Assembly: GCF_900155915.1 (NCBI RefSeq)
Contig: NZ_FTPO01000002.1
Location: 310,001-374,000, forward strand
Reading direction: 5' to 3'
DNA length: 64,000 nt
From: Microbacterium sp. RU33B
Lineage (GTDB): Bacteria; Actinomycetota; Actinomycetes; Actinomycetales; Microbacteriaceae
The position numbers and the translations under genes are program-made. The first letter of the stretch is position 1, and each line of letters starts with the position of its first letter. The notes under the pieces were generated by a model. The model was not told the origin of the DNA. It ran no database searches and was given only the letters and a program-made list of their open reading frames with translations. Below, piece by piece: positions 60,787 through 64,000 of the stretch.

Positions 60787-62001
60787 ATGACGATCGACCT
60801 CGAGGCGCTGTACATCGACCTGCACCGGCATCCGGAGCTCTCGTTCCAGGAGACCCGCACGGCGGGGGTCATCGCGAAGCACCTCGCCGATCTCGGCATC
60901 GAGTTCGAGGAGGGCATCGGCAAGACCGGCATCGCCGCCGTCATCCGCAACGGAGACGGGCCCGTGGTCTGGCTCCGCGCCGACACCGACGGCCTGCCCG
61001 TGCCCGAGCAGACCGGGCTCGCCTACGCCAGCACCGCCCGCGGCACCGACCCGTCGGGCACCGACGTGCCGGTCATGCACGCGTGCGGGCACGACATGCA
61101 CGTGACCGCGATGCTGGGTGCGCTCGAGCGACTGGTGAACACCCGGAACGAATGGTCCGGAACGATCGTCGCCGTCTTCCAGCCGGCCGAGGAGTACGGC
61201 GCCGGCGCACAGGCCATGATCGCCGACGGCGTGCTCGAGCGGTTCCCGAAGCCCGACATCGTGCTCGGCCAGCACGTCACCCCGCTTCCGGCCGGCACCA
61301 TCGGCGTGCGCAGCGGCACGCAGATGGCGGCCTCCGACGGCCTCACCGTGACGCTCCTCGGGCGGGGCGGCCACGGCTCGCGCCCGCACTCGACGATCGA
61401 TCCCGTCGTCATGGCGGCCGCCACCGTCATGCGCCTGCAGACCATCGTCTCGCGCGAGGTCGACCCGCGGCACGTCGCCGTGGTCACGGTGGGCTCGATC
61501 CACGCCGGACTGAAGAACAACATCATCCCCGCCGAGGCGAAGCTCGAGCTCAGCCTCCGCTACCCCGACGACGAGGCCCGCGAGCGCGTGCTCGCCAAGG
61601 TCGAGCGCATCGTGCGCGCCGAGGCCCAGGCATCCGGTGCGGAGCAGGAGCCGGTCATCGTGACCGACCACACCCTCCCGCCGACCATCAACGACGTCGC
61701 GGCGACCGAGCGGCTCGTCACCGCGTTCGACCGCGCCTTCGGCGACGGCACCGTCATCGACCCCGGAATGTTCACCGGCTCGGAAGACGTGTCGTGGTTC
61801 GCACGCGAGTCCGGCGCACCGCTCGTCTACTGGTTCTGGGGCGGCGTCGACCCGGAGAAGTTCGCGGCGGCGACCGCCGCCGGGCGCGTGGAGGTCGACA
61901 TCCCGACCAACCACTCGCCGTTCTTCGCCCCGGTCATCCACCCGACCCTCGAACGGGGCGTCGACGCGCTCATCGTGGCGGCACGGGAGTTCCTCGACTG
62001 A
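60787..62001 (+). CDS. M20D family amidohydrolase (hippurate-hydrolase-like)
   Basis: 404 residues. LYIDLHRHPELSFQETRTAG at the start; metal ligands in MHACGHDMHVTAMLGA and QPAEEYGAGAQAM; FTGSEDVSWFARESGAPLVYWFWGG and NHSPFF near the end. Hydrolyses N-acyl amino acids in characterised relatives (hippurate, N-acetyl amino acids, IAA conjugates). Leaderless ATG 60787. Its last 32 bases overlap the convergent VanZ gene. Confidence 0.92.
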   Translation: MTIDLEALYIDLHRHPELSFQETRTAGVIAKHLADLGIEFEEGIGKTGIAAVIRNGDGPVVWLRADTDGLPVPEQTGLAYASTARGTDPSGTDVPVMHACGHDMHVTAMLGALERLVNTRNEWSGTIVAVFQPAEEYGAGAQAMIADGVLERFPKPDIVLGQHVTPLPAGTIGVRSGTQMAASDGLTVTLLGRGGHGSRPHSTIDPVVMAAATVMRLQTIVSREVDPRHVAVVTVGSIHAGLKNNIIPAEAKLELSLRYPDDEARERVLAKVERIVRAEAQASGAEQEPVIVTDHTLPPTINDVAATERLVTAFDRAFGDGTVIDPGMFTGSEDVSWFARESGAPLVYWFWGGVDPEKFAAATAAGRVEVDIPTNHSPFFAPVIHPTLERGVDALIVAAREFLD

Positions 62002-63046
62002 TCCCCCGGGCGTCGACCACGGCCTGGCCCGACAGCACTCCGGGGAGACCGCGGCCGTTCTTCGTGGTGAACAGCAGCACGATGCTCACGACGCCGAACA
62101 GCGTCACGAGGATCCCGCTCCAGTCGGGGACCAGCCCGAGCAGCAGATAGCCGCCGATTCCTCCGACGAAGCGCAGCGGACGCGCCACGGCGGCGGGCAG
62201 GGGTCCGCCGCGGTACCGCAGCTCGACCGCGAGATCGCCGATCGTGCCTCCCGTCACGAGCACGACCACCAGCCAGACCACGAGCGGAGCCGCCGCGGCG
62301 ACCGTCGCCGAGATGCGCCCGTCGAGCACGGCGTCGTGGTCGCCCACGACGTACTCCAGCCAGAGCTGCACGCCCACGCCGGCGGCGAGCGTCACGATCG
62401 TTGTGCCGAGCCAGTCGCAGAGCATCGCGACGAACCGGCGACCGCGGGTGACGGGCCGCGGGGCATCCGGATCGGCGACCGCCGAGTAGCCCCGGTGCCG
62501 TTTGGGCACGACGAATGCGACGAGCGAACCGAGCACCGCCCCCGTCGTGTTGGTGAGCATGTCGTCGACGTCGAACACGCGATAGGCGCAGGGATACAGG
62601 CCCCACACGCCCGTCAGCTGCGTCGTCTCGATGAACAGGGAGAGTCCGAGGCCCACCAGGAGAGCGGTCAGGATGCCGCGTCCGCCGAGCACCCGCAGGA
62701 AGAAGCCGAGCGGCAGGAACAGCAGCACGTTGAACAGCAGCTGCAGCACGGCGGGATCGGTGAGGGTGTTGCCGGGTCGCGCGACGGCGCCGCGGATGTC
62801 TTCGACGAACTCGAGCACGTTCAGGTTCGTTCCGACGCACCGGAGGGTGTCGGGGTCGGGCAGCGGGAGCAGGGTGTACGTCCAGATCGCGAGGAAGTAG
62901 ACGAGGAACGCCGCCCACAGCGCGAACCGCCCGAACGTGAGCGTTCCGCGCCGGCGATAGCTGACCGCGACGAACGGGACGAAGAGGACGAACCCGGCCG
63001 CCACCCCGAGGGCGATCGCCAGGACGCCCAGAGAGATCTGATCCAC
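61970..63046 (-). CDS. VanZ-like / RDD domain fusion membrane protein
   Basis: 358 residues. N-terminal VanZ-like half (about 1-185): four or five helices with IWTYTLLPLPDPDTLRC, FNVLLFLPLGFFLR, LFIETTQLTG and VFDVDDMLTNTTGAVLG, the diagnostic D-D-N pattern. C-terminal half (about 205-345) is RDD-like: GRRFVAMLCDWLGTTIVTL, TGGTIGDLAVELRY, LVPDWSGILVTLFGVVSIVLLFTTKNGRGLPGVLSG. Role unknown; VanZ proteins lower teicoplanin or lipoglycopeptide binding in some bacteria. GTG 63046 is leaderless. Confidence 0.87.
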   Translation of the reverse strand: MDQISLGVLAIALGVAAGFVLFVPFVAVSYRRRGTLTFGRFALWAAFLVYFLAIWTYTLLPLPDPDTLRCVGTNLNVLEFVEDIRGAVARPGNTLTDPAVLQLLFNVLLFLPLGFFLRVLGGRGILTALLVGLGLSLFIETTQLTGVWGLYPCAYRVFDVDDMLTNTTGAVLGSLVAFVVPKRHRGYSAVADPDAPRPVTRGRRFVAMLCDWLGTTIVTLAAGVGVQLWLEYVVGDHDAVLDGRISATVAAAAPLVVWLVVVLVTGGTIGDLAVELRYRGGPLPAAVARPLRFVGGIGGYLLLGLVPDWSGILVTLFGVVSIVLLFTTKNGRGLPGVLSGQAVVDARGISRGTPVPPR

Positions 63047-63052
63047 GCCCCG

Positions 63053-63124
63053 AGCCTAGGGGCGTAAGGATTTCGTGAGGATGTCGCGATCGATCCGTCC
63101 TCACGCTTTCCTTACGAGTAGCGT
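63053..63124. promoter_or_regulatory. Divergent leaderless promoters with symmetric four-box element
   Basis: Minus -10 TAGGCT (63053-63058, 6 bases to GTG 63046) and plus -10 TAGCGT (63119-63124, 8 bases to GTG 63133). Between them CGTAAGGA (63063-63070), CGTGAGGA (63074-63081), then their inverted complements TCCTCACG (63098-63105) and TCCTTACG (63109-63116). Each pair is a direct repeat with 11-base period, typical of OmpR/PhoB-type response-regulator sites near -35. Confidence 0.65.
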
Positions 63125-63132
63125 CGAACGCC

Positions 63133-64000
63133 GTGACAGACGAAAGCCCGGAATCGGTCGTCGAGACGCCGCTGGCGAAGCGGATCCTGATCGGCGATCC
63201 GCTCACGTCGGAGAAGCTCGACGATCAGCTGCTTCCCAAGAAGATGGCGCTGCCGATCTTCGCCTCCGACGCCCTCTCCTCGGTGGCCTACGCACCGCAG
63301 GAACTGCTCATGATCCTGCTCATCGGCGGCACGGCGTTCCTCGCGTTCAGTCCGTGGGTGGCCGTGGCCGTCGTCGTCGTGCTCTTCGTGGTCGTCGTCA
63401 GCTACCGCCAGCTCATCAAGGCCTACCCGTCCGGCGGCGGCGATTACGAGGTCGCGCGCACGAACCTCGGCGAGGTGCCCGGCGTCGTCGTGGCGTCGGC
63501 GCTGCTCGTCGACTACGTGCTGACCGTCGCCGTGTCGGTCGCCTCCGGTGTCGACAACATCATCTCCGCCGTCCCCGGGCTCAATCCGTTCCGCGTCGAG
63601 CTCGCGGTCGGCTTCGTCATCCTGATCATCATCGTCAATCTCCGCGGCGTCCGCGAAGCCTCCCTCGTCTTCGCGATCCCGACGTACCTCTTCATCGGGT
63701 CGGTCGCCGTCATGGTCGTCGTGGGCCTCGGCCGGTGGCTGCTGGGCGACACCCCCGTCGCCGAGAGCGCGCAGTACGCGGTGCAGGCCGAGAGCCTGTC
63801 GCAGGCCGCGGTCATCCTGCTCGTTCTGCGGGCGTTCTCCAGCGGATGCTCCGCCCTGACCGGCGTCGAAGCCGTCGCCAACGGCGTCCCCGCCTTCCGC
63901 AAGCCCAAGGTGCGCAACGCGCAGTCGACGCTGAGCCTCATGGGCATCATCGCGATCCTGCTGTTCTCGGGGCTCACGCTCCTCGCCCTGCTGGCGGGGG
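63133..64000 (+). CDS. KimA-like APC/KUP superfamily potassium transporter (partial, runs off window)
   Basis: First 289 residues visible. Cytoplasmic head ending LPKKMALPIFASDALSSVAYAPQELLMILLIGG, the start of helix 1 in KimA (YdaO) and related APC-fold transporters, then SYRQLIKAYPSGGGDYEVARTNLGEVPGVVVASALLVDYVLTVAVSVASGVDNI and helix FSSGCSALTGVEAVANGVPAFRKPK. KimA imports K+ with protons and is controlled by c-di-AMP in Firmicutes. An amino acid permease is the alternative. The 86-base upstream region is too short for a ydaO riboswitch. Confidence 0.85.
   Translation, partial: MTDESPESVVETPLAKRILIGDPLTSEKLDDQLLPKKMALPIFASDALSSVAYAPQELLMILLIGGTAFLAFSPWVAVAVVVVLFVVVVSYRQLIKAYPSGGGDYEVARTNLGEVPGVVVASALLVDYVLTVAVSVASGVDNIISAVPGLNPFRVELAVGFVILIIIVNLRGVREASLVFAIPTYLFIGSVAVMVVVGLGRWLLGDTPVAESAQYAVQAESLSQAAVILLVLRAFSSGCSALTGVEAVANGVPAFRKPKVRNAQSTLSLMGIIAILLFSGLTLLALLAG

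Follow-up and report, generated by a model that had tools for sequence, protein, structure and literature searches.

The 64,000-nucleotide stretch of the Microbacterium sp. RU33B genome analysed here (the window) carries near its end two divergent genes, coding for a KimA-like potassium transporter and for a membrane protein with a VanZ domain, which are separated by two pairs of repeated boxes (Table 1). A PDB search with the kimA product returned KimA (6s3k) as its sole match (E 2.4e-120, residues 16-647); this Bacillus subtilis protein belongs to the same transporter family. The RDD part of the second gene's name follows a first reading made without database searches (hereafter the sequence-only reading), and no Pfam RDD domain was found in its product at E 0.001.

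Table 1. Features of the region between vanZ-RDD and kimA and of the flanking genes (positions in the window).
Feature	Position	Strand	Remarks
vanZ-RDD membrane protein gene, divergent	61970..63046	-	PF04892 (VanZ); RDD part named in the sequence-only reading
-10 box of vanZ-RDD (TAGGCT), predicted, leaderless	63053..63058	-	sequence only
KdpE operator dimer 1 (putative)	63063..63081	+	CGTAAGGA-TTT-CGTGAGGA; half-sites 63063-63070, 63074-63081; oriented canonically for kimA; beginning 70 bp ahead of the kimA GTG (63133)
KdpE operator dimer 2 (putative)	63098..63116	-	TCCTCACG-CTT-TCCTTACG; inverted with respect to kimA (from -35 to -17); beginning 70 bp ahead of the vanZ GTG (63046)
-10 box of kimA (TAGCGT), predicted, leaderless	63119..63124	+	sequence; TANNNT kept there in both groups of operator-bearing kimA promoters
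kimA-like K+ transporter gene	63133..64000, runs past window end	+	693 aa; PF13520; PDB 6s3k

The half-sites follow the motif CGTRAGGA with an 11-bp period and form two dimers 16 bp apart, whose 19-nt arms are 84% complementary and make up a near-perfect dyad. The four boxes, one pair followed 16 bases on by its near-exact inverse, had been described in the sequence-only reading; both arms are found where it placed them, and they are the only strong matches in the window. With a matrix trained solely on sites located before kdp operons (the kdp-only matrix), dimer 1 scores 29.1 bits and dimer 2 29.2 bits, the next best site of the 64 kb reaching 9.6 bits. The two 19-bp arms are not due to chance. 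A search of the whole genome for TCCTNACG-N3-TCCTNACG, allowing one mismatch, gives three sites: the two arms, and a third lying 4 kb downstream in front of kdpFABCDE, on the far side of kimA, sufS and a SufU-like gene. Concerning a wider regulon in this genome, sites with 2 mismatches reach at most 10.8 bits with the kdp-only matrix. The direct repeat had also been assigned to the -35 of each promoter. The 11-base repeat was recovered, but its placement is not simply this one: with respect to kimA, the forward dimer begins at -70 and the inverted one occupies -35 to -17, in the interval between the -35 region and the -10-like TAGCGT. The -10 boxes and leaderless starts of both genes are predicted ones, and a sigma-70 consensus scan found no promoter.

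The last gene of the downstream kdpFABCDE operon codes for a KdpE with a receiver domain (PF00072) and a winged helix (PF00486), whose best PDB match is KdpE (4kny). Its best NCBIfam match is the KdpE model NF007820, at 232.7 bits and below the cut-off of 325; the KdpD of this genome likewise has the NCBIfam KdpD model as best match, with a score below the cut-off. The regions upstream of kimA and kdpA were taken from Microbacterium genomes. The operator is present in all 103 kdp upstream regions read, in a single orientation, with the consensus CGTANGGA-N3-CGTGAGGA; most of them add a weaker dimer 32 bp further upstream. A family-wide search recovered the same 19-mer at 30/30 kdp loci; these come almost entirely from other genera, with G034 belonging to Microbacterium. 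In a class-wide scan, only 5 of the 27 distant kdp loci attain 9.7 bits. In distant actinobacteria the second half-site shifts to CGTCAAG, i.e. toward the minimal KdpE site of M. smegmatis. This 22-bp site, CCGTAAAGAAACCATCAAGGCC, was defined at kdpFABC by gel shift and footprint (PMC5401905), and it fits the half-sites, spacing and orientation of the Microbacterium motif. Aligned in register, the two sequences share 10 of the 14 consensus positions, a score equalled by 4 of 20,000 shuffles, but the second half-site is CATCAAGG in M. smegmatis and CGTGAGGA in Microbacterium. The E. coli KdpE site (PMC3264566) is also made of two direct repeats bound by KdpE, 6 bp long with a 5-bp gap and hence of 11-bp period, whereas its AT-rich TTTATA/TTTACA boxes bear no evident sequence likeness to the Microbacterium motif. 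The four-box element is very probably a KdpE binding site, lying before a KimA-type transporter as it does before the Kdp pump. The binding pattern of the OmpR/PhoB family proposed in the sequence-only reading agrees with this assignment, KdpE being a protein of that family. In 149 Microbacterium genomes, 82 of the 86 exact matches to CGTANGGAN3CGTRAGGA are located at kimA, kdp or orphan kdpDE (the kdp match of G011 and the orphan kdpDE match of G014 were assigned by hand), and only one of the 37 genomes without detected KdpE carries such a match (G046, an 81% draft with kdpA).

When 112 kimA promoters were scored with the kdp-only matrix, the distribution was bimodal: 50 promoters reach at least 17.8 bits (boxed) and 62 at most 8.4 bits (unboxed), on a background where 99.9% of shuffled promoters remain below 9.7 bits and coding controls below 0.5. 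A forward dimer lies at -59 of kimA in 28 genomes, usually with another one at -91 (32 bp), and at -70 in 14 genomes, which is the arrangement of the window. Dimer start and -10 box are spaced by about 45 bp both before kdp and in the -59 set of kimA promoters; in the -70 set, to which the window belongs, the spacing is 56 bp, one 11-bp repeat longer. In two groups of species the operator keeps a constant position with respect to kimA, so the potassium transporter appears to be its target, and this part of the earlier proposal of a single regulator for the potassium transporter and the VanZ-like protein is supported.

The inverted dimer is present in 12 genomes, each time at the -35 of kimA, and its position from -35 to -17 is constant among them. 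Sites overlapping the promoter spacer are usually repressive, and dimer 2 might act as a brake, filled at high KdpE~P and limiting kimA. PhoB-type activators, however, also bind close to or over the -35, and we retain the brake as a tentative suggestion, with the balance leaning somewhat against it. Alternatively, a single KdpE operator could serve both genes, dimer 1 activating kimA and dimer 2 vanZ-RDD, so that the envelope protein and the K+ transporter would respond together. The dyad is indeed perfect in that each dimer starts at -70 of the GTG of one gene, and of the 24 boxed genomes with an adjacent vanZ, 19 have only 25-32 bp between the vanZ start and the box next to it; they fall into two groups with different box layouts. 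Yet a near-exact -70/-70 symmetry is seen only in the window's genome (G000) and, to a lesser degree, in G113, the vanZ start being more distant elsewhere; many boxed genomes with an adjacent vanZ have forward dimers only; and vanZ adjoins kimA in 24 of the 50 boxed genomes and in about 18 of the 62 unboxed ones. Moreover, two genomes (G012 and G131) keep the inverted dimer at the kimA -35 with an M20 hydrolase gene, not vanZ, upstream. Because the dimer is kept in these two genomes, vanZ was rejected as its reason, and its conservation places the second, inverted dimer with the kimA promoter in the species group of the window. The comparisons do not demonstrate the VanZ half of the proposed co-control, and we consider joint activation of both genes rather doubtful. 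From the 25-32 bp separating box and vanZ start, KdpE could nevertheless well affect vanZ.

Results concerning the distribution of KdpE indicate an association with the boxes. A KdpE orthologue (at least 75% identity) was found in 50/50 boxed kimA genomes compared to 40/62 unboxed ones (Fisher 3e-7, not corrected for kinship), 22 of the 62 thus being without it. Because 40 unboxed kimA genomes have KdpE, this regulator does not always control kimA. The kimA tree requires at least 10 changes of box state; a kinship-aware paired test restricted to well-supported branches had just 4 usable pairs, too few to give it power, with 1.2 agreeing and 0 disagreeing. Among kimA genomes without kdpA, KdpE was kept in 9/9 boxed compared to 2/13 unboxed genomes, namely G064, whose kdpA is cut at a contig end, and G123, a draft 88% complete. 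Counted by lineage according to our own reading of the tree, these proportions become 7/7 and 1/9 (p 0.0014). The sole exception is G123, in which full-length KdpDE coexist with an unboxed kimA, kdpFABC not being found in the 13 kb read. Genomes whose only KdpE is of a more distant type (66-71%) also have an unboxed kimA. Two genomes (G069 and G117) possess both KdpE types; in each, the near type adjoins a kimA that is boxed, and the more distant one accompanies kdpFABC elsewhere. As judged from these sequence comparisons, the motif is that of the kdp operator; many Microbacterium species have it at kimA with a fixed geometry, and every genome with it at kimA also encodes a KdpE orthologue.

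KdpE, MtrA and PhoP had been listed as candidates in the sequence-only reading. Regulators of the MtrA, PhoP and RegX3 types all use tandem-repeat sites with a period near 11 bp, and another member of the OmpR family could in principle bind the boxes. However, the other OmpR-type regulators (about 34-41% identical to KdpE) occur alike in boxed and unboxed genomes, and therefore cannot explain the box distribution; the same site is moreover present before every kdp operon read. Of these candidates KdpE was thus retained, the others were rejected as binders, and we regard their involvement as very improbable.

The inverted repeat could also be only an RNA hairpin or terminator, an alternative named beforehand, or kimA could be regulated by a c-di-AMP riboswitch. 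The strand carrying the repeat does fold well (-30.6 kcal/mol, z -3.0), but the search for a terminator-like site found none, the genes are divergent with the repeat upstream of both predicted starts, and the hairpin is absent from most related operators, which contain direct repeats only. In B. subtilis, c-di-AMP controls kimA expression through a riboswitch. Rfam gave zero matches up to E 1 in the region 62800-63400. Both the hairpin or terminator reading and riboswitch control were discarded on these grounds, and their probability seems close to negligible. For B. subtilis kimA, c-di-AMP is reported to control both expression and activity (PMC6579464); the kimA of the window differs in being apparently leaderless, in its putative KdpE operator and in the negative Rfam result for the same region.

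The fate of KdpD provides a further view on the KdpDE pair. About seven lineages have lost kdpFABC and kept the kimA box; all of them still have KdpDE, and in all but one the N-terminal domain of KdpD is gone. The KdpD match starts at residues 327-365 in seven genomes with a short protein (G010, G014, G068, G099, G147, G069 and G057, the kdpD of the last being broken up and possibly decaying) and at residue 224, with the Usp domain kept, in G017 and G095; G106 and G117 have a full-length KdpD. Over the genus, the N-terminal domain is present in nearly all genomes with kdpA, the exceptions (G046 and G104) both being fragmented assemblies, and just three genomes without kdpA possess it (G106, G123 and G132). 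Where kdpFABC was lost, kdpDE are found near kimA, and the old kdp box lies directly 5' of kdpD in G014, G017, G068 and G095. In G099, G147, G057 and G069, kdpD and kdpE directly follow kimA in an operon-like arrangement (kimA-kdpDE).

The N-terminal domain of KdpD is an atypical serine kinase, which inhibits KdpFABC by phosphorylating KdpB (PMC11018627). The tandem serine/histidine kinase described there is in line with the presence of this domain in nearly all Microbacterium with kdpA. That survey was, however, confined to species with Kdp(F)ABC, whereas pump-less genomes here keep KdpE with a KdpD mostly devoid of the N-terminal domain. We find it fairly likely that KdpDE in Microbacterium is a transferable module controlling kimA and kdpFABC, which after loss of KdpFABC is captured by kimA, KdpD shedding its KdpB-phosphorylating domain to become a plain histidine kinase. 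If true, such capture puts the tandem-kinase model of KdpD to an evolutionary test. The repeated losses of kdpFABC, in which KdpDE stayed and KdpD was trimmed, amount to natural experiments that bear on the reason for two kinase domains in KdpD.

The regulator of kimA would be KdpE, because the motif is shared with the kdp operator, the kdp-only matrix separates the kimA promoters, all boxed genomes have KdpE, KdpDE is retained after loss of kdpFABC, and the M. smegmatis site is in register. With high confidence, we propose that the element is a KdpE operator at which, at low K+, KdpE~P would bind and activate kimA together with kdpFABCDE. Under K+ limitation, KdpE would be phosphorylated by the kinase KdpD; KdpE~P would bind the 11-bp-period CGTRAGGA repeats as head-to-tail dimers and activate the apparently leaderless kimA promoter, along with the operon 4 kb downstream. 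The inverted dimer, overlapping the spacer between -35 and -10, may tune, limit or reinforce this transcription. In this scheme the direct binding, the K+ signal at kimA and the sign of the effect (activation, not repression) are inferred.

Two K+ uptake systems would thereby be tied to one sensor, and at the sequence level the KdpE operator provides a link between Microbacteriaceae and the site mapped by experiment in mycobacteria. In M. smegmatis, the KdpE site is known at kdpFABC alone and a kimA target is unreported (PMC5401905). No earlier report of KdpE control of kimA was found in the open-access papers searched; as far as these papers go, this is a known regulator with a known operator at a target that had no earlier report. 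Four exact operator matches are located away from kimA and kdp (G063:C11:1351516, G063:C11:1538841, G065:C5:116820 and G019:C9:41773) and are possible further KdpE targets.
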